This document shows, piece by piece, positions 14,117-59,374 of a stretch of 60,188 nucleotides of DNA. The DNA is from Sphingorhabdus sp. EL138 (lineage in GTDB: Bacteria > Pseudomonadota > Alphaproteobacteria > Sphingomonadales > Sphingomonadaceae). The DNA lies in assembly GCF_945882965.1 (NCBI RefSeq), contig NZ_CAMCWY010000017.1, positions 1-60,188 on the forward strand, read 5' to 3'. How positions within the stretch are numbered: position 1 is the first letter of the stretch; every line of letters begins with the position of its first letter. The notes beneath the pieces were generated by a model, which worked only from the letters and a program-made list of their open reading frames with translations, searched no databases and had not been told where the DNA came from. A program made the translations under genes and the position numbers.

Positions 14117-14647
14117 TTATCGAACGGTTACCGTCACCGCACGGCGGTTCTGGGCCCAGGACTGTTCGTCCGAACCCAATGCCGATGGCCGTTCCTTGCC
14201 ATAGCTAACGGTCTGGATACGGCTCGCGTCGACACCAATGGAGGTCAGATAGTTTTTGGCGGAGTTGGCGCGGCGCTCACCAAGCGCGAGGTTGTAGTCG
14301 CGCGTACCGCGTTCGTCCGCATGACCTTCGACAATGGCGCGTGTGCCAGGATATTGGGCCAACCATTGCGCCTGACGCTGCAACACGGCCTGGTCTTCTG
14401 CATCAACGTTGAAACGGTCGGTTTCAAATAGGATGCGGTCGCCGAACTGGCCAACCTGTTGCAGGAAATCTTCTTGGCTGCCCGGAACAATCTGGCTGGT
14501 TGGGGCAATCGGGGCAGTCGGCGTCTGGCCATAGTCAGTGCCTTCTGCAGCGGGCGGCAGAACTTCGACCGTTTTCTTTCCGCAGCCTGCGACAAGCGCG
14601 GTCGATACCAGCAATATGGCGGCCATTTTGATCGTATTTGTCTTCAT
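14117..14647 (-). CDS. pal: Peptidoglycan-associated lipoprotein Pal
   Basis: 176 residues. The lipoprotein signal MKTNTIKMAAILLVSTALVA ends in the lipobox VAGC. After a short linker, an OmpA-like peptidoglycan-binding domain follows, with GHADERGTRDYNLALGERRA and a C-terminal NRRAVTVTVR. Pal anchors the outer membrane to peptidoglycan and is gathered at the division site by TolB and TolQRA. The start is fixed by AAGGAGAA seven bases before ATG 14647; an upstream ATG at 14686 would destroy the signal peptide. It is the last gene of the tol-pal run. The cpoB gene that often follows pal is not here. Confidence 0.95.
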   Translation of the reverse strand: MKTNTIKMAAILLVSTALVAGCGKKTVEVLPPAAEGTDYGQTPTAPIAPTSQIVPGSQEDFLQQVGQFGDRILFETDRFNVDAEDQAVLQRQAQWLAQYPGTRAIVEGHADERGTRDYNLALGERRANSAKNYLTSIGVDASRIQTVSYGKERPSALGSDEQSWAQNRRAVTVTVR

Positions 14648-14701
14648 GATATTCTCCTTCGCTCGAAAGCATTTCGGTATAAACATAACAGTGAAACGTC
14701 C

Positions 14702-16066
14702 TTAAGGCAATACAGGTCCCCATGCTGGGTCTGAACCATCGATTGGCGTGGGCAATTGTCGTTCGTTGGAACCAGTAAGGTCCACTTGCCAGATGCTTGT
14801 TTTACCACTTCCCTTTGCCGTGCGGAAGAACTGAATGACGCGGCCATTTGGCGCCCATGTCGGTGCTTCGTCCTGCCAGCTATCGGTGAGCAAGCGTTCG
14901 CCTGAGCCATCTGGACGCATCGTGCCAACGCGAAAGTCGCCAGCGATGCGGGTAAAGGCAATCAAGTCAGCGCGCGGGCTCCATTCCGGCGTCGCATAGC
15001 GGCCGGAACCAAAGCTGATGCGGCGTTGATTGCTGCCGTCGGCGTTCATCACATAGACTTGCTGGCTGCCCGAACGGTCGCTTTCAAACACGATCTGGCG
15101 GCCATCGGGGGAAAAGCTGCCGCCGACATCAATGCCGGGCGAGCTGGTCAGCTTTACAGGCGTGCCATTGCCGCTGGCTGCAATTTTATAGACGTCGGTA
15201 TTTCCCGACACGGCCATCGAATATAATATTGTCTGGCCATCGGGCGACCAACGCGGCGCGAAAGTCGGGCTTGTGGACTGGGTAATCAGGCGCTGACGTC
15301 CGGCATCAATGTCATAGACGTAAATACGCGGACTTCCGTCGACATAGGACAGATACAGGATCGATTTGTAATTGGGCGAGAAGCGCGGTGTAAGCGCTGT
15401 CGACTGGCCATTGGTGATGAAGCGGTGGTTTGCGCCATCCGAATCCATGATCGCAAGCCGCTTTATTCGTTTATTCTTTGGCCCACTCTCGGCGATATAG
15501 GCGATACGGCTATCGAAAAAGGGAAGCTCACCCGTCAGCCGCGAATAGATCGCATCGGCGCATTTATGCGCGGCCCTGCGCCATTCGCGCGGCGGCACGT
15601 TAAAGCCAAGACGGGTGGTTTCATTGCCAAAGCCGACATCATATAAATAACAGCCAACGGTCAGGTTGCCATCGCCACCAACACGGACAAAGCCTTGTAC
15701 CAATTGTTCAACGGGGCGCGATTTCCAATAGTCAAATTGAGGTGTTGCGACCTCAGGCAAGGTGATGGCCCGCAATCCGTTTGGCCCCTGCGTTTCAAAG
15801 ACGCCCGATGCGCGCAAGTCTGACGAGATTACCTCAGCGATCTGGCGGCCAAGCGCCAAGCTGTTGCCCGCTGCCGTGTCGGTAGGCGCGGGCGCGACCA
15901 AAGCGGGCACGGCGATGGAACGGGTTTTCGAGGTGTCGAATTCGACCAATTCGGGCTCATCCAATGCAGGCGCAGCAGCCGGCGGCGTTTGCGCGATGGC
16001 GGCTTGTGTGCCCAAGATGAAAAGCACGAAAGACGCCAGTTTCCGGTTGCGTGCGAAGAGTGACAT
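14702..16066 (-). CDS. tolB: Tol-Pal system beta-propeller protein TolB
   Basis: 454 residues. The signal peptide MSLFARNRKLASFVLFILGT ends in AIAQ. An N-terminal alpha/beta domain and a six-bladed propeller follow, with repeated SPDGRQIVFESDRSGSQQVY-type WD-like units: FSPNYKSILYLSYVDGSPRI, WSPDGQTILYSM and WSPRADLIAFTRIAGDF. TolB is periplasmic and links TolA to Pal. ATG 16066 has AAAGGA at good spacing; ATG 16075 is too close to it. It lies 13 bases after tolA and 54 bases before pal. Confidence 0.95.
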   Translation of the reverse strand: MSLFARNRKLASFVLFILGTQAAIAQTPPAAAPALDEPELVEFDTSKTRSIAVPALVAPAPTDTAAGNSLALGRQIAEVISSDLRASGVFETQGPNGLRAITLPEVATPQFDYWKSRPVEQLVQGFVRVGGDGNLTVGCYLYDVGFGNETTRLGFNVPPREWRRAAHKCADAIYSRLTGELPFFDSRIAYIAESGPKNKRIKRLAIMDSDGANHRFITNGQSTALTPRFSPNYKSILYLSYVDGSPRIYVYDIDAGRQRLITQSTSPTFAPRWSPDGQTILYSMAVSGNTDVYKIAASGNGTPVKLTSSPGIDVGGSFSPDGRQIVFESDRSGSQQVYVMNADGSNQRRISFGSGRYATPEWSPRADLIAFTRIAGDFRVGTMRPDGSGERLLTDSWQDEAPTWAPNGRVIQFFRTAKGSGKTSIWQVDLTGSNERQLPTPIDGSDPAWGPVLP

Positions 16067-16079
16067 ATATCTCATTCCT

Positions 16080-16913
16080 TTATCCCGTAGCGCGCAAACG
16101 CAGCGCGTGGGTTTTCCAAACGTCATAATATTCTGGGTCAAGCCCACTATAAGGCGACGCTGCACGCACCGCCTGCAAGATGCAATCTTTCAAAGGTCCT
16201 GCTTGCGGCTGGTTGCTGCCGTTGAGGCCCATATGCTTGTCAAAGCGGACCGAGGTCAGTTTGCCTGTCGGTTCGAGGTTCAATGTCACAAAGGTTTCGA
16301 TCTTGTTGATGTCGATACCCGATGGCGCACAAGCGCGCACGCGGCTGCGGATTTGACCAGCGATGCTGATACTGACCGATCGGCGCACTTCGGCCGCGGT
16401 TTTGGCTGCAGGGGTTCCAACGGCCTTGCCCGCGCCGGGGGCCTTGCCAATATTGTCGATGCTGTCGAGAAAGCTTCGGCTTAGCCCGCTGGGCTTGGCT
16501 GGCGTTGTGCCCTTGCCACTGACTGCTGCTGCCTTGGCAGGGGGCTGCTTCACAGGCTCTTTCTTTACCGCGACCTTGGCAACAGGCGGCGCAGCTGCCG
16601 GCTTCACAGGCTTTGAAACAGGCTTGGCCTGCGGCTTCTCCACCGGCTTTGCGATTTGCATTATGGGTGTTGGGGCAGGTGGGGACTCTGCCGGCGCAGT
16701 GTCACCTGGGGCAGGTGGCGCAGAATCCTCTTGGATTGCATCGGGCGCAGTGGAGACATCGGCAATTTCGCCCACCAACGATACGGAAATAGACTCTTGC
16801 TTAGGCGCAGTCTTTGCAGATGCCAGCAGGCCAAGCGCAAATGCGCCAAGCAAGAGGGCATGGCCGCCAACCGCCACGCCAAGTCCCAGTTTCTCCGCCC
16901 GATCCATTGCCAT
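16080..16913 (-). CDS. tolA: Tol system energy-transducing protein TolA
   Basis: 277 residues with a short cytoplasmic N-terminus, one membrane helix (LGVAVGGHALLLGAFALGLL), a long Pro/Ala/Lys-rich periplasm-spanning arm (about 60-175), and a C-terminal domain of TolA/TonB type carrying FVTLNLEPTGKLTSVRFDKH. TolA couples the proton motive force harvested by TolQR to TolB-Pal. The arm is low complexity (repeats of KPVSKPVKP), so sequence conservation is confined to the two ends. Identification rests on these ends and on its position between tolR and tolB. Confidence 0.92.
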   Translation of the reverse strand: MAMDRAEKLGLGVAVGGHALLLGAFALGLLASAKTAPKQESISVSLVGEIADVSTAPDAIQEDSAPPAPGDTAPAESPPAPTPIMQIAKPVEKPQAKPVSKPVKPAAAPPVAKVAVKKEPVKQPPAKAAAVSGKGTTPAKPSGLSRSFLDSIDNIGKAPGAGKAVGTPAAKTAAEVRRSVSISIAGQIRSRVRACAPSGIDINKIETFVTLNLEPTGKLTSVRFDKHMGLNGSNQPQAGPLKDCILQAVRAASPYSGLDPEYYDVWKTHALRLRATG

Positions 16914-16917
16914 CTTG

Positions 16918-17379
16918 TTAGCTGTCGTTTGCTGAACCGGTGGTGACTAGGCTCACGCTGTTCAATCCAGCGCGGTTCAATTCGCCCATGACGCGCATCA
17001 TCTGACCATAGCTGATCGCCGTATCGCCGCGCAGCATGATCTGGCGCGGGGCTTCAGGTGTCTGCGCAGCGGCGATTTCTTCCAACCGTACCGCAAGCTC
17101 TGCGGGCGTAACTTCTGTGCCGTCGATGAAGGTCACGCCATCGCGGTCGATTGCAATTTCAATGGGTTCATCCTTTTGATCCAGCGCGTTGGCGCGGCTT
17201 TCTGGAAGCTCGACAGGCACGCCTGTCACCAGCAAGGGTGCGGTGACCATGAAGATGATGAGCAAGACCAGCATGACGTCGACAAAGGGCGTGACGTTGA
17301 TGTCCGCCATCGGCGCGCGCCTGCTCCCCCGCCTGCGCCTGCGTCCGCCACCACCGTTTGATGATGTGTTCATCGCCAT
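16918..17379 (-). CDS. tolR: Tol system proton channel subunit TolR (ExbD family)
   Basis: 153 residues. A basic N-terminus rich in Gly/Arg leads into ADINVTPFVDVMLVLLIIFM, whose membrane aspartate is the proton-carrying residue in ExbD/TolR. The periplasmic domain ends with LRGDTAISYGQMMRVMGELN. It forms the inner-membrane motor with TolQ. Gaps are two bases to tolQ and four to tolA. Confidence 0.94.
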   Translation of the reverse strand: MAMNTSSNGGGGRRRRRGSRRAPMADINVTPFVDVMLVLLIIFMVTAPLLVTGVPVELPESRANALDQKDEPIEIAIDRDGVTFIDGTEVTPAELAVRLEEIAAAQTPEAPRQIMLRGDTAISYGQMMRVMGELNRAGLNSVSLVTTGSANDS

Positions 17380-17381
17380 CT

Positions 17382-18074
17382 TTAACCCTCAAGCTCCAAT
17401 TCACGGCTCAACGTGCCGTGAAAGCCATCGGCAAAGCGCCCCATGCGTGCCTCATATTGGTTCAGCCGGTGTGAGAAGCGGTTATAAGCGATGACCGCAG
17501 GGATTGCGGCGAACAGGCCGATTGCGGTAGCAAACAACGCCTCGGCAATGCCCGGTGCCACAACCGCAAGGCTGGAATTCTGTTCCGCCGCAATCGCCGC
17601 AAAGCTGCGCATGATGCCCCAAACGGTTCCAAACAGGCCAACAAATGGCGCAACCGATCCCGTGGTCGCAAGGAAGTTCAAACGATTGGCAAGACGGTCG
17701 GTTTCTGCGGCAATGGTCGCATCCATTGCGGTGGCAAGCCGCTCGCGCGTTCCGGAACGGTCAATGCTCTTGCCATTGGTCGATAGCCGCCATTCGGCCA
17801 TACCTGCGGCAAACACCTTGGCCACGGGCAATTCATTCTGGCTATGTGTTTTGGCGAACGCCGCGATGTCGGAACTGCCCCAAAATTCGCGCTCAAATGT
17901 GTCGCTCTTCTTGTTAATACCGGACATTTTTACGGTGAAGCTGAGGATGATTGTCCATCCCCAGACGCTGGCCAGCGCGAGGCCAATGATGACCGACTTG
18001 ACCACCAAATCGGCATCCAGAAACAGTTTGATTGGTGAAAAACCCACATTTTGGGTCGCGATGAGCAGGTCCAT
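17382..18074 (-). CDS. tolQ: Tol system inner-membrane channel subunit TolQ
   Basis: 230 residues of the MotA/TolQ/ExbB family, with three membrane segments: one near residues 20-45 and two in the C-terminal half (LNFLATTGSVAPFVGLFGTV, GIAEALFATAIGLFAAIPAV). It forms the proton-driven motor with TolR and TolA. ATG 18074 (MDLLIATQNVGFSP) has AGGAT nearby; upstream codons up to 18167 overlap ybgC and do not resemble the family. It follows ybgC by seven bases. Confidence 0.94.
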   Translation of the reverse strand: MDLLIATQNVGFSPIKLFLDADLVVKSVIIGLALASVWGWTIILSFTVKMSGINKKSDTFEREFWGSSDIAAFAKTHSQNELPVAKVFAAGMAEWRLSTNGKSIDRSGTRERLATAMDATIAAETDRLANRLNFLATTGSVAPFVGLFGTVWGIMRSFAAIAAEQNSSLAVVAPGIAEALFATAIGLFAAIPAVIAYNRFSHRLNQYEARMGRFADGFHGTLSRELELEG

Positions 18075-18081
18075 GAATATC

Positions 18082-18537
18082 CTATTCTGCGTGTCTGTTG
18101 ATAATAGGCTGGAACGCCGCAACCCATTGCGCAGGTTGCCGGCGCGGTTTGCCGTCTGGTGAAACAAAGGCCGCAGTTACCTGGGCCTCGGTTAGTATGT
18201 CGTCGCCGCGCATGACGGTTTGATGAATGTCGCAACTGGCCGCGCGCACCGCTTCGACCGTGCTGATGACCACCAGGGCATCGTCAAAATGCGCAGGGCG
18301 GCGATATTTGATATGCATTTCGGTAACCGCATAGGCGCCTTGGTCCGCCGCATGCACCGTGCGCTGGTCAATGCCAACGCAAGCGAGCATGTCCGAACGC
18401 GCGCGCTCCATGAAGTGCAGATAGCGCGCATGGTAGACGACGCCCGAAAAGTCGGTGTCCTCAAAATAAACCCGCACGGCAAACATGTGCCGCGCGCCGT
18501 CAAAATGGCCATGATAGGGAGTAGGGACGGTCATCAA
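18082..18537 (-). CDS. ybgC: Tol-Pal-associated acyl-CoA thioesterase YbgC
   Basis: 151 residues, hot-dog fold 4-hydroxybenzoyl-CoA thioesterase family. The signature VRVYFEDTDFSGVVYHARYL contains the catalytic Asp, and RARSDMLACVG follows. YbgC hydrolyses acyl-CoA or acyl-ACP in the cytoplasm and is usually the first gene of tol-pal operons, as here. Its exact substrate varies between species. The nearest upstream gene is ruvB, 87 bases away on the same strand. Confidence 0.93.
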   Translation of the reverse strand: MMTVPTPYHGHFDGARHMFAVRVYFEDTDFSGVVYHARYLHFMERARSDMLACVGIDQRTVHAADQGAYAVTEMHIKYRRPAHFDDALVVISTVEAVRAASCDIHQTVMRGDDILTEAQVTAAFVSPDGKPRRQPAQWVAAFQPIINRHAE

Positions 18538-55168: not shown

Positions 55169-55858
55169 CTAAACGTTCAGCGCATTAATGGCGGCGTGGA
55201 CCCGCGCCTCAATCTCCGCGCGTGGCAGGCCAGTGGGAAGCTCTTCCCCCACCCTGTAGGTAATCGTCCCTGATTTCCAGATGCCGGCTTTGCGCGGACT
55301 TAACGTGCCGCTGTCCACCGCAATCGGAACGACGGGGAGGTTGATGAGCTTATACAGGCCCGCAAAGCCCGACTGCAATGGCGGCTGACTGCCGGGTGCA
55401 ACGCGGGTACCTTCGGGGAAGATCACGATTGGCCGTCCGTCGGCGATCATCTTTTTGGCCAAAACCAGCATGGCCCGAAGCGCCGCCGCGCCGCCATCAC
55501 GGTCAACAGGGATCATGCCATAGGCCCGCGCGGCTGGTCCCCATAAGGGAATATCGAACAGCTCTTTTTTCGTTACCACCGCAGGCTTGCGAAACATGCG
55601 GGGCATGTCGATGGTTTCAAACATGCTTTCATGTTTGACGGCGTACAGCACCGGTTTTTCCGGCAATTCGCCCTCAATCTTGATGTTGATGCCCAATATC
55701 CGGCGGTAGCAGGCATATTGCCAGCGCGACCAGCCGCGCACGGCCCATTGCATCAGCGGAATGGAGACCCATTGCGCCAGAAATGCGGTTACGACGAAAA
55801 ACACGGAACCTGTGTAAAATATCAAGATATATGCCGCAGACCGGATGACTGCGATCAC
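55169..55858 (-). CDS. plsC: 1-acyl-glycerol-3-phosphate acyltransferase (PlsC family)
   Basis: 229 residues. An N-terminal membrane helix (SAAYILIFYTGSVFFVVTAF) is followed by the acyltransferase motifs: KHESMFETIDM (the HX4D block, with Glu in the acid position), GMIPVDRDGGAAALRAML, VIFPEGTRVAPG and VPIAVDSGTL. It acylates lysophosphatidate at the inner membrane. It follows ydcF by three bases. Confidence 0.88.
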   Translation of the reverse strand: MIAVIRSAAYILIFYTGSVFFVVTAFLAQWVSIPLMQWAVRGWSRWQYACYRRILGINIKIEGELPEKPVLYAVKHESMFETIDMPRMFRKPAVVTKKELFDIPLWGPAARAYGMIPVDRDGGAAALRAMLVLAKKMIADGRPIVIFPEGTRVAPGSQPPLQSGFAGLYKLINLPVVPIAVDSGTLSPRKAGIWKSGTITYRVGEELPTGLPRAEIEARVHAAINALNV

Positions 55859-55861
55859 GGC

Positions 55862-56392
55862 TTAAAACCCAAGAAGCGACGCGACTGCGCGCAACCAATA
55901 TTTGTTATATTCCCTGAACAAGCCGCCAAGCGACGGTTGGGTCGACACCGCGTCATTGGTGACGGTGATTCCGCTGGGCAAGGCCCGGTCAAGTTCAAAG
56001 CGCGCGCGCCGCATGTGCCAATCATGCGTAACAAGTCGAATAGTGCGCATATTGTTCCGCTTTGCCCATGCTGCCGTTTCCAATGCATTGGATCGCGTAT
56101 CTACCGATTGGAAACCCAGCGCGATGCAGCATTGGAAATATTGCGCAGATTTTGGATATTCCGCCTGAAGGTCGGGCGGCTTCACATCGCGGTCCACACC
56201 GGAAATCAGCAATTTTTTGGATTTGCCCGATGCTAATATTTCGAGCCCGCGATCAATTCTGTTTGCTCCACCGGTTAGCACGACAACGCCATCGGTTGGC
56301 GAAATGGGCGCTGGCTGCGGCAAAAGCAACGCAAACCAGGCAAAGCCCAGCATCCAAATCAACAATATAAAAGCGATAGAGCGACTGATCAT
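55862..56392 (-). CDS. YdcF/SanA-like DUF218 family protein
   Basis: 176 residues from ATG 56392. A single N-terminal membrane helix (SIAFILLIWMLGFAWFALLL) precedes a DUF218 domain with DGVVVLTGGANRIDRGLEIL, LLISGVDRDVKPPDL, DTRSNALETAAWAKRNNMRT and VTHDWHMRRARFELDRAL. The family is linked to envelope integrity and vancomycin sensitivity (SanA), but the reaction is unsettled. Its ATG overlaps a TGA belonging to the ftsX remnant, so it was once coupled to ftsX. Confidence 0.85.
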   Translation of the reverse strand: MISRSIAFILLIWMLGFAWFALLLPQPAPISPTDGVVVLTGGANRIDRGLEILASGKSKKLLISGVDRDVKPPDLQAEYPKSAQYFQCCIALGFQSVDTRSNALETAAWAKRNNMRTIRLVTHDWHMRRARFELDRALPSGITVTNDAVSTQPSLGGLFREYNKYWLRAVASLLGF

Positions 56393-56573
56393 AACATCTT
56401 CTTTAACGCAAAAATCACGATGAAGCGCGTCATAAGCATAGCAAGCGTCGTCACGGCAAGCGGAATGCGCGCGCAGATGACCCCGCCCGAAACGGATAAG
56501 GCATCGCGCGAGAGCAAAGCGGGCACAGCGGCGGCACATCCGTTATCGCACGTAACGCTTATTATGGCGATTC
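56389..56573 (-). pseudogene. ftsX: ftsX remnant (C-terminal end only)
   Basis: In one minus-strand frame the last 60 codons before a TGA at 56389 include PALLSRDALSVSGGVICARI, PLAVTTLAMLMTRFIVIFAL and KKML. This fits the last transmembrane helix and basic tail of FtsX (typical LAALTARLTVLRALRRML). The TGA overlaps the ydcF start as ATGA. The rest of ftsX and the ftsE ATPase gene expected upstream are absent; coding similarity ends exactly where the MITE begins at 56574. Confidence 0.65.
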
Positions 56574-56782
56574 CTAGGGTCAGGACCACTTAAAGCCACC
56601 TTCGCGGTTTGATGCCATACTGTTCAGTGCAAGGCGGTAAGCGCAGGGCTTAGTGGTTCTAAGTCCAAGCTTGCCAACGCGGCAATGGACAAAATGGGTC
56701 AAATCCAAAGGACGTCAAAATGGCTTCGATATCTTTGCCATTTTGACGCCGCGAAGGTGGATTTAAGTGGTCCTGACCCTAG
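56574..56782. mobile_element. 209-bp MITE with 34-bp inverted ends and CTAG flanks
   Basis: The two ends, 56574-56607 and 56749-56782, are inverted repeats of 34 bases with one mismatch, starting CTAGGGTCAGGACCACTTAA. CTAG at both outer ends would fit a 4-bp target duplication like the YTAR targets of IS5-group elements (inference). No transposase is encoded. Inside, 56713-56724 and 56737-56748 form a perfect 12-bp hairpin (CGTCAAAATGGC), and TTGCC/GGCAA forms another near 56671. It lies between the ftsX remnant and a zinc-ribbon gene. Confidence 0.75.
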
Positions 56783-56859
56783 ACCTGAAAAGGCGTCGTC
56801 CACAGCATTTTATAACGTTAGGGTTGCAAGTCCCCAGATGCTGCTGTTTAGGATTTTCC

Positions 56860-57717
56860 ATGCTGCTTGTATGTCCCTCCTGCCGCACCCGCTATGCTGT
56901 TCCTGACAATGCCGTTGGTGTTGATGGCCGCCAAGTGCGTTGCGCCAATTGCAAGCATGGATGGTTTCAAGAGGGGGCGGCTCCCCAGACAGCGCCAACC
57001 CCTTCAATACTAGCGCCCGCCAAACAGAGCGACCCTGCGCCCGTTATAGCTCCGCCAGAGGTCGCCCCGCCAACGCCTGTGGCCATCCCCTCGGTTTCCC
57101 CTGACCCCGTTCCGCGAATCATGGGCGCAGAAACGGATGCGGATGACGCGCAGCCGCCCTTCCCACGATTCGCCCCTGAGCACGCCGCTGCGCCTGACCC
57201 GGCTCCGGTCTATGACGATCCGTCGTTAAGCGCTGGCTTAAGGGCGGACAAAGAACCAACGCAAAGCCGCTTTGCGCATGAGCCACCGTTCAACCAACGC
57301 CGCAGTCCGGCGAAAATCTGGACTTTGGTTGCCATCATCTTTGCACTGACGGTTACCGTCATCGGCACGGCTATCTCTTATTTCGGTATGCCAAATATTG
57401 GCCTTTCCAGCGCGGCGGAAGAACCCGATCTGACAATCGTGCTCAACGAAAATCTGGAACTGAACGAACGCGAAGACGGCACGCCCTATTTTATCGCCAG
57501 CGGCAGCATTGTGAACCCGACCGGCGTGAAACAAAATGTCCCCGACATGCTGGTAACGCTCAAGGACGCGAGCGGCAGACCAGTTTACAGTTGGAAAATG
57601 AAAGCAAAGGCAAGAACGCTTGCACCCGGCGCAAAGGTCGATTTTAGCGAGGCACGGCTTGACGTTCCATTGGCGGCCAAGCAGATCAGCGTCGGCTGGG
57701 TGCTTTCGGGCGACTAG
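56860..57717 (+). CDS. Zinc-ribbon (MJ0042-type) membrane protein, DUF3426-like
   Basis: 285 residues from ATG 56860, with TTTAGGA upstream. It begins MLLVCPSCRTRYAVPDNAVG and has a second CxxC in VRCANCKHGWFQEG: the MJ0042 zinc finger. A Pro-rich linker (about 45-170) and one membrane helix (IWTLVAIIFALTVTVIGTAI) follow, then a periplasmic DUF3426-like domain. In related genomes this gene is typically divergent from ftsE (general recollection), so its position supports the loss of ftsE. Function unknown. Confidence 0.85.
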   Translation: MLLVCPSCRTRYAVPDNAVGVDGRQVRCANCKHGWFQEGAAPQTAPTPSILAPAKQSDPAPVIAPPEVAPPTPVAIPSVSPDPVPRIMGAETDADDAQPPFPRFAPEHAAAPDPAPVYDDPSLSAGLRADKEPTQSRFAHEPPFNQRRSPAKIWTLVAIIFALTVTVIGTAISYFGMPNIGLSSAAEEPDLTIVLNENLELNEREDGTPYFIASGSIVNPTGVKQNVPDMLVTLKDASGRPVYSWKMKAKARTLAPGAKVDFSEARLDVPLAAKQISVGWVLSGD

Positions 57718-57829: not shown

Positions 57830-57869
57830 GCCGCCTTAGCTCAGTTGGTAGAGCATCGCATTCGTAATG
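57830..57869 (+). pseudogene. 5' half of tRNA-Thr (CGT), probable attachment-site remnant
   Basis: Reads GCCGCCTTAGCTCAGTTGGT, then AGAGCATCGCATTCGTAATG: acceptor 5' strand, D-arm, anticodon stem and CGT anticodon, then stops being tRNA-like after TAATG. The 3' half is absent. It differs from the intact copy at 59299 in the acceptor (GCCGCCT versus GCCGCTT) and anticodon stem (TCGCA versus CTTCA), so it is a different allele, not a simple duplicate. Confidence 0.85.
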
Positions 57870-57962
57870 TGTTGGCGAACACCTGATTTTTCTAGAGAAT
57901 GCAATACTTACAGTGACTTAAGCACGCTTGCTGTTGTATAGTTTTTTCTATACAACAATTTC

Positions 57963-59234
57963 ATGAGCAAAGGCGTTGTAAAAAATAGTCAAAGTCGTGC
58001 TGACCCGACAGTGCGTGACCGCACACAGCCAATCCCAAGTTCGCTACAGAAGGTGACGGGTTTTGGAACGCTCACAATTTACAAAATGGCAGCGTCTCCA
58101 TTCTGGTATGCGCGGTATTATGAGGACGGAAAAATCGTTCGTCGTAGTTTGAAGGTTGCTGACAAAAAGGAAGCAATCAAAGCTGCCAAGAAGGTCTTTG
58201 TTGATCTCAAGCATCGCAAGATGAACAATCTGCCGTTCACAAAAACGAGTGGCTTTGAAGTTTGCGCTCGCGGTCTTGCCAAAGAGAATGATGCACGGTT
58301 CAAGCGTGGTGAATTATCAAAGCAGAAAGTCAATTATGACGCAGGGCGTCTCGAAGCTGACTTGCTACCGCACTTCGGAAAGTATGAGATTGCGGACATA
58401 GATTACAGCGTCATCAGCGATTACATCAACAAGCTCAGTACGCCAGATCGTCCGCTGACGATCAACACGCTGAAGATACATCTCTCCCACATAAAGACGA
58501 TATTAAAGTACGCTCAGCGAGTTGGCGTGATTACGGGGCTTCCAGCGTTCCCGCGTCTCAAAACGACTGACACAGCCCGTCCTTGGTTTAATAGCGCCGA
58601 ATACGGTGCGCTGCATTCCGTCTGTCGTTCACGCATTGGCACAAAAATACGGGTGAATACAAAGGCTGGAAAGTTCCTTCGCAATGTCGAGATTACGCAA
58701 GATGTGTATGATCTCATCATCTTCATGACGAACTCGTTCATTCGTCCAACTGACATCAAAGTGCTTCAGCACAAGCATGTTGCGATTATTCGCGGCAAGG
58801 ACACTTATCTGCGGCTGACGCATCCACCGACAAAAGGTCATGGAAGCCCAGTCGTGACGCTCAAACGAGCGGTTGAGGTATATGATAAATTATTGGAGCG
58901 TCAAAAGGCTGAAGGGTTTGGGAAGCCAGATGACTATCTGTTTTGTCCACAGCAGTTGAACCGTGATTATGCATTGCGGGATATCACACGGCAATTTGAT
59001 CAAGTGCTGAAGGTTGCTGGGTTGAAAACTGGCTCAAATGGCGATGCGAGGACGCTCTACAGCTTAAGGCACACATGTATCATGTTCCGTATGATCAATG
59101 GCGAAGGCATCGATCTGCTTACTATCGCCCGCAGCGCACGAACATCTGTCGAGATGATTGATCGGTTCTACGCAAAGCATCTCACTGCCGAGATGAATAT
59201 TGCCCAACTACAGAGCGGCACCATCAACGATTGA
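57963..59234 (+). CDS. Tyrosine recombinase/integrase
   Basis: 423 residues. An N-terminal arm-binding region (TLTIYKMAASPFWYARYYED), a SAM-like core-binding domain (about 110-200), then the catalytic domain with Arg in SFIRPTDIKVLQHKHV, Lys in THPPTKGHGSP, the HxxR-type block in YSLRHTCIMFRM, and Tyr in IDRFYAKHLT. It would integrate or excise the element at the tRNA-Thr site. Base composition is visibly lower in GC than the backbone. It is the only recognisable mobile-element gene in the window and lies between the half tRNA and the intact tRNA. Confidence 0.9.
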   Translation: MSKGVVKNSQSRADPTVRDRTQPIPSSLQKVTGFGTLTIYKMAASPFWYARYYEDGKIVRRSLKVADKKEAIKAAKKVFVDLKHRKMNNLPFTKTSGFEVCARGLAKENDARFKRGELSKQKVNYDAGRLEADLLPHFGKYEIADIDYSVISDYINKLSTPDRPLTINTLKIHLSHIKTILKYAQRVGVITGLPAFPRLKTTDTARPWFNSAEYGALHSVCRSRIGTKIRVNTKAGKFLRNVEITQDVYDLIIFMTNSFIRPTDIKVLQHKHVAIIRGKDTYLRLTHPPTKGHGSPVVTLKRAVEVYDKLLERQKAEGFGKPDDYLFCPQQLNRDYALRDITRQFDQVLKVAGLKTGSNGDARTLYSLRHTCIMFRMINGEGIDLLTIARSARTSVEMIDRFYAKHLTAEMNIAQLQSGTIND

Positions 59235-59298
59235 AGATGAAAGCGGGTCAAAAAAAGGCTGGGAAATTGTACGTATTCCCGCTAATAGACACGCCATT

Positions 59299-59374
59299 GC
59301 CGCTTTAGCTCAGTTGGTAGAGCACTTCATTCGTAATGAAGGGGTCGTAGGTTCGAATCCTATAAGCGGCACCA
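59299..59374 (+). tRNA. tRNA-Thr (CGT)
   Basis: A complete 76-nt tRNA. Acceptor GCCGCTT pairs with AAGCGGC, followed by ACCA; the D-arm is TTAGCTCAGTTGGTAGAGCA; the anticodon stem CTTCA/TGAAG encloses TTCGTAA (CGT); and the T-arm has GGTTCGAATCC. All stems pair. It lies 64 bases after the integrase stop and 1.47 kb from the half copy with the same anticodon. Confidence 0.96.

Follow-up and report, generated by a model that had tools for sequence, protein, structure and literature searches.

FtsEX is held to switch division signals from the cytoplasm into cutting of the septal wall, EnvC being its periplasmic adaptor and the Amidase_3 enzymes being counted among the main cutters. What, then, has become of this pathway in a strain that retains only the end of ftsX, and how do its daughter cells part? 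We addressed the question in a window of 60,188 nucleotides, meaning the whole stretch of DNA analysed, from a Sphingorhabdus assembly of 2.36 Mb (38 contigs, 99.85% complete; G000). The initial annotation had read a short minus-strand frame beside a MITE as the C-terminus of FtsX, had placed the deletion of the rest at or by this mobile element and had concluded that cell separation would have to be rewired, possibly with the help of the intact Tol-Pal system. Hereafter, G labels designate genomes and L labels loci; L094 belongs to G027 (Sphingorhabdus sp. WA123a), L091 to G020 (S. wooponensis) and L155 to G004, and most of the named relatives are MAGs.

The ftsX relic and its surroundings

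Residues 8-66 of the minus-strand frame 56589-56389 align without any gap to residues 240-298 of the intact FtsX of L094 (43/59 identical, 73%; pairwise E 9e-22), and 34/59 residues are identical to the FtsX of L099 (pairwise E 3e-16). The genus FtsX profile, A1, matches the relic at E 1.8e-9; Pfam and NCBIfam scans of the stub gave no match. Profile A1 was built from 21 FtsX proteins of the genus and its neighbours, the one of L106 having an internal deletion; profile A2 includes the product of the L108 ftsE, which is broken and in part out of frame. Any protein used to build A1, A2 or A3 matches its own profile by construction. The frame is, as annotated, homologous to the C-terminus of FtsX, and it sits at the native locus of the gene, where, as in a coupled pair, its stop codon (TGA, 56391-56389) overlaps with the start codon of ydcF (ATG, 56392-56390), an overlap also present in L094. 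The rest of the two genes is gone here, ftsE entirely and ftsX up to about codon 239, again in line with the first reading. A functional FtsX is a four-helix permease with a periplasmic domain; residues 240-298 alone are left in the window genome.

A search of the whole window assembly with the FtsX and FtsE profiles (FtsE threshold 1e-70) found no further copy of either gene. With TIGR02673, 34 ABC ATPase pieces were retrieved, all below the FtsE cut-off of 264.85; the best of them (208.3 bits) scores highest as MacB and was ruled out as FtsE. The FtsE of L094 reaches 274 bits with this model, above the cut-off. As for the FtsX of the relatives, the genus profile matches solved FtsX at E 2e-10, and TIGR00439 gives 48 bits, under its cut-off of 255; PF18075 (FtsX_ECD) had no match in the window genome, and the intact FtsX of L094 likewise had none at 0.01.

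Extending the FtsX profile search to 45 genomes of the genus, we found a full-length protein in 31, a broken one in G015, a C-terminal relic in 10 and no match in three (G004, G018, and G068); the G004 locus (L155) holds, by eye, a shorter relic that the profile leaves unmatched. FtsE was matched at E 1e-70 or better in 32 of the 45, the 13 unmatched genomes being the same ones that are without full FtsX, and both proteins are intact in 30. Two sister MAGs carry independent lesions: a 201-bp deletion between 8-bp GAAACGAT repeats in the ftsX of G015 (L106), and, in the ftsE of G024 (L108), which is matched from residue 40 only, a frameshifting deletion of ~70 bp through the ATP-binding loop. 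The missing ftsEX of G018, which is also without ydcF, and of G068 (63% complete) may be assembly gaps.

Table 1. Features of the window discussed in the text, with the basis of each assignment.
Feature	Position	Strand	Basis
Tol-Pal operon, with genes that we take to be ybgC, tolQ, tolR, tolA, tolB, and pal	14117..18537	-	Open frames; complete gene order
plsC-type acyltransferase	55169..55858	-	PF01553, 1.2e-18
ydcF (DUF218), downstream partner of ftsX	55862..56392	-	PF02698, 3.8e-14 (scanned within the longer frame 55862-56539); position conserved in relatives
ftsX relic	56389..56568	-	FtsX residues 240-298 and stop; homology to L094 and to the genus profile
GAAT (ATTC at 56570-56573), 4 bp that probably remain from the region upstream of ftsE; they separate the relic from the MITE and mark where the missing ftsE/ftsX segment would have been	56570..56573	-	Comparison with L094 (CTAG followed by GAATAGCC...)
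MITE of 209 bp with inverted repeats of 34 bp at its ends; TA target duplication probable	56574..56782		Arms, genome family, and copy ends
MJ0042-type zinc-ribbon/DUF3426-like gene, opposite ftsE in relatives	56860..57717	+	TIGR02098, 9.9e-14 on frame 56767-57717; synteny; start by eye

Further along the window lie, in a row, what resembles by eye the 5' half of a tRNA-Thr(CGT) (57830-57869), a phage-integrase-like gene (57963-59234; PF13102 slightly above its cut-off) and a complete tRNA-Thr(CGT) (59299-59374). The stretch 57830-59374 is thus arranged as a small element integrated at a tRNA gene would be.

The MITE and the origin of the deletion

The element is real: short, devoid of a transposase of its own (its coding content being judged from the list of open reading frames), bordered by long terminal inverted repeats and multi-copy, with 55 matching pieces in the window genome, itself included. 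Most copies end in TA or near it, which suggests a TA target duplication. The similarity to FtsX, which had been described as stopping exactly at the element, ends ~4 bp before it. The same MITE stands at the same CTAG site in L094, ahead of an intact ftsEX; there, another, partial end (TTCCTGACCCTAG) comes after it. From its base composition the window should contain ~228 CTAG sites, but it has 38; the shared position would stem either from common ancestry or an exchange, or from two separate insertions into a single rare site.

The zinc-ribbon gene facing ftsE-ftsX-ydcF-plsC is the usual order in Sphingobium and in most of the Sphingorhabdus loci compared, as the initial annotation had it; S. 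rigui and S. contaminans are among the species with ftsEX. In seven loci (L091, L092, L095, L096, L097, L098, and L155), only a few hundred bases separate the zinc-ribbon gene from ydcF, with neither ftsEX nor the element; L093 holds a relic of the same kind, its locus ending at a contig edge, and L101 and L102, also without ftsEX and MITE, have a different junction that retains ~24 FtsE codons. The junction is most legible in L095 and L098, where the first ~13-17 codons of ftsE are fused in frame to the last ~60 codons of ftsX. By eye, the odd junction bases (CTTCGGCCAAGTCGCGG or near it) recur in L091, L093, L095, L096, L097, and L098, a recurrence that speaks for a single deletion allele. 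The window relic has lost the junction; it has derived bases in common with the relics of L092 and L095 (PALLS, where L094 reads PGLLS), and its deletion is therefore probably the common older one, to which a second loss of ~100 bases beside the MITE would have been added.

That the MITE itself deleted ftsE and most of ftsX is thus very improbable. The idea draws on an element with many copies in the genome that lies 4 bp from the end of the relic. However, ftsEX is absent without any element from the seven relatives just listed, all of clade A, and from the two others, and L094 has the element beside an intact ftsEX; because of these loci, the MITE is, on this comparison, neither necessary nor sufficient for the deletion and is not its cause; relatives of this kind are what the initial annotation itself had named as able to refute its proposal. 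The descent of the window relic from the older allele points the same way, as does the loss of envC and amiC (see below), at whose two junctions in the window genome no copy of the element is visible. The later erosion of ~100 bp beside the element may still be MITE-linked. One could also imagine that the relic is kept for a purpose, as a leader or small membrane peptide coupling translation to ydcF; indeed, the ATGA overlap is retained in the clade A relics, and the last 26 codons are stop-free in 9/9 of them. We consider this improbable, as over these 26 codons the differences among the nine relics fall evenly on the three codon positions (144/154/148; pN/pS 1.13), against 55/52/244 and 0.19 in eight intact genes (over 34 codons, pN/pS is 0.88 in the relics versus 0.25), as the parts of the clade A relics upstream contain stops or further deletions in several species, and as the bases conserved towards the end may belong to the ribosome site of ydcF. 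The relic drifts neutrally and behaves as a pseudogene; no selection is detectable.

Loss of EnvC and AmiC in the same genomes

Beyond what the initial annotation had noticed, the loss includes envC and amiC. FtsEX-positive relatives encode, between rlmH and ctpA, a protein of ~390-400 aa with a LytM domain and, by eye, an apparent signal peptide and coiled coil. Residues 155-385 of the G027 protein match the solved EnvC structures 6tpi and 8hd0, the latter of which also contains FtsX, and the similarity extends outside LytM; the best NCBIfam score is to the LytM part of DipM, the EnvC model staying below its cut-off. The LytM part of the G027 protein, the only one tested, is without the HxxxD and HxH motifs. 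In the window genome, envC is deleted: the profile finds no match, no degenerate LytM protein lies between rlmH and ctpA, and rlmH is directly followed by ctpA, as in G020, G004, G010, G034, and G003 (six junctions read in total). Another M23 protein of ~400 aa was rejected as EnvC, its window-genome copy having intact catalytic motifs, and has no bearing on EnvC. Across the genus, EnvC is unmatched by profile in 9/45 genomes, namely the six just named (G000 included) and G007, G021, and G065, for which the absence is that of a profile match. In addition, the envC of G017 keeps its start and its LytM part, has lost residues ~28-258 and is frameshifted, and that of G024, the genome with the broken ftsE, has a nonsense codon.

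PF01520 (Amidase_3) is absent from 11/45 genomes: the nine EnvC-unmatched ones, G017, and G062, the last of which is 78% complete and has an intact FtsEX and only a fragment of EnvC. The amiC gene, usually the sole Amidase_3 gene of a genome, lies in G027 and G006 between genes that we take to be rne and mrcA. The gap between these two genes measures 1568 bp in G027 and 1807 bp in G006 versus ~490-640 bp in G000, G003, G004, G007, G010, G020, G021, and G034, and a weak relic of the AmiC C-terminus can be recognized in five of these eight sites. In the window genome, which has no PF01520 match above cut-off, the relic of 37 residues (73% identical) is all that is left of AmiC. To put these absences into perspective, Amidase_3 was found in 294/297 genomes of the order with a completeness of at least 95%, the three exceptions being the window genome, S. 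wooponensis (G020), and G259; outside the genus, it is missing in only 1/289 (G259, from another genus of the family, 3.2 Mb in 2 contigs). As a side observation, the AmiC of G027 (L270:6459-7394) has no AMIN domain match and that of G006 has one (two proteins scanned), and Amidase_3 frames are only 322-351 aa long in 16 of the 34 genomes that have them; the decay may also pass through a stage in which the domain for septal targeting disappears.

We then tallied the three components over 42 of the 45 genomes, leaving out G018, G068, and G062. EnvC is lost or broken in 11/13 genomes with impaired FtsEX and in 0/29 with intact FtsEX (Fisher p 2e-8), and Amidase_3 is missing in 10/13 versus 0/29 (Fisher p 2e-7), both p values being uncorrected for shared descent. 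The losses are nested, FtsEX going before EnvC and EnvC before AmiC: none of the 42 genomes is without AmiC but with EnvC, and none has an impaired EnvC beside an intact FtsEX. On the locus tree, which covers 33 of the 45 genomes, impaired FtsEX occupies four places, namely clade A, the G017/G067 pair, and the sister genomes G015 and G024 with their two different lesions; EnvC is impaired in three of them (clade A, G017, and G024), and AmiC is lost in clade A and perhaps in G017. Exceptions to full co-loss are G067 (580 contigs, 7% contamination), which has an FtsEX relic together with EnvC and AmiC, G015, where FtsX alone is broken, and G024, where AmiC is present.

Two trees place G027 beside G021 (support 99 and 100) and within the depleted clade, and nevertheless it has all four genes at their native sites. 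At ydcF it groups with G021, at mrcA with both G021 and the window genome, and at the envC flanks, a set without G021, with the window genome. With dN/dS values against L099 of 0.06 for FtsE and 0.11 for FtsX, its ftsE and ftsX are under strong selection. Such a position requires one of the following: regain or allele exchange at three loci, spread of the deletion alleles by recombination, repeated loss, or a chimeric MAG. The FtsX of G027 shares the motif DALSVSG with the clade A relics, and its synonymous distances to L099 are 1.1 (ftsE), 1.6 (ftsX), and 1.1 (ydcF); these observations disfavour a distant donor, and the donor of ftsEX, if any, was therefore probably a close relative. Regain or exchange with a close relative, or spread of the deletion alleles, would in either case strengthen the link between the genes.

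Cell separation without the pathway

Taken as a whole, these observations are best explained if the window holds one of three sites of a dismantled FtsEX-EnvC(LdpF)-AmiC septal amidase pathway, with separation now achieved by other means, a reading that we hold with considerable confidence. The deletion allele of the clade joins the start of ftsE to the end of ftsX, and in the window copy the ftsE part is gone too and a MITE is present; FtsEX-driven activation being no longer needed, the adaptor EnvC and then the amidase AmiC would have decayed. The window strain and its closest relatives must separate their daughter cells in some other way, and the rewiring predicted by the initial annotation is borne out, ftsEX being gone with no second copy. 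The most likely agents of separation would be the four LytM endopeptidases that are left with their catalytic motifs intact, together with lytic transglycosylases, under the control of the divisome and Tol-Pal. These four are the proteins of the window genome that pass the M23 cut-off, and each has its HxxxD and HxH motifs (a weak fifth match lies within an apparent RNA polymerase subunit); searches with the M23 and EnvC profiles and with PF01520 found no degenerate LytM protein and no AmiC. The Tol-Pal genes announced at 14-18 kb are indeed readable in complete order, under names that are presumably the right ones (Table 1).

An artefact of assembly or binning, in which the genes exist but are missing from the MAGs, deserves consideration for so many MAGs. 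G018 and G068 are without ftsEX yet have EnvC and AmiC, a gap-like pattern in G018 especially, which also misses ydcF; likewise, G017 and G065 are without both amiC and its neighbour mrcA (unmatched at E 1e-100), so that their AmiC loss may be an assembly gap, in which case full three-gene loss is proven for one lineage only. In S. wooponensis (G020; 100% complete in 8 contigs) and in the window genome, however, each of the three junctions is closed inside a contig, and two of the sites still hold relics; for these genomes we give the artefact next to no weight. A replacement of the module by a non-homologous amidase or another regulator is a more serious matter, as the loss of a whole separation pathway suggests compensation, and as, in Caulobacter, depleting AmiC has a strong synthetic effect when FtsE or LdpF is also missing (PMC5607218). 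Compared in number and frame length with the M23 proteins of the FtsEX-positive relatives, those of the window genome nonetheless appear to form a subset, and we regard such a replacement as rather unlikely. We thus retain dismantling of the pathway, with separation by the remaining hydrolases, as the working explanation.

Judged on the relatives that keep them (FtsE, FtsX, EnvC, and AmiC), the lost genes look orthologous to the FtsEX-EnvC-AmiA/B system of E. coli and to the FtsEX-LdpF-AmiC system of Caulobacter crescentus; each set is present in those species, whereas the whole set is absent here. In Caulobacter, LdpF co-precipitates with AmiC and FtsEX and AmiC is called essential (PMC10336132), LdpF binds FtsX through its coiled coil in a two-hybrid assay, loss of FtsE leads to chains, and depletion of AmiC without FtsE or LdpF leads to much stronger chaining (PMC5607218). 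For E. coli, weak chaining is described when EnvC alone is lost (PMC12505981), and Tol-Pal acts in the NlpD-AmiC branch and probably affects other separation factors too (PMC5533458). The Tol-Pal genes are shared with our strain; the NlpD-AmiC branch, however, cannot work here in its known form because neither a degenerate LytM protein nor AmiC was found.

Absence of ftsE and ftsX has been described for the obligate intracellular Rickettsia, Wolbachia, and Buchnera (PMC10591338). These are host-bound, whereas here at least one species (S. wooponensis) is in culture and the relics are still readable, which is why the order of loss is visible. The depleted genomes measure 1.9-2.4 Mb (3.4 Mb for G067), and from the culture and the record descriptions (lake, pond, and bloom), we infer that the lineage is free-living. 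Our literature search, whose coverage left out most subscription journals, found no report of FtsEX loss in Sphingomonadales. It would appear that a known pathway has been lost as a unit in seemingly free-living cells, recently enough that one can still read the relics and follow the order in which the parts decayed. Division independent of the amidase in a free-living Gram-negative bacterium, with endopeptidases and transglycosylases alone opening the septal wall, and with a clade that keeps the order of dismantling (regulator, adaptor, enzyme) of a seemingly indispensable pathway and even a possible wholesale regain in one species, is a conceivable outcome that we place a little short of probable; “amidase-free” means here free of Amidase_3, the Amidase_2, CHAP, NlpC/P60, FtsN/SPOR, and transglycosylase families being outside the search. 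That a relative of Caulobacter does without FtsEX, LdpF, and AmiC is unexpected, and since S. wooponensis, which is in culture, has neither FtsEX nor Amidase_3 and close relatives have both, two questions come within direct reach of experiment: what else can split a septum, and which proteins depend on FtsEX.
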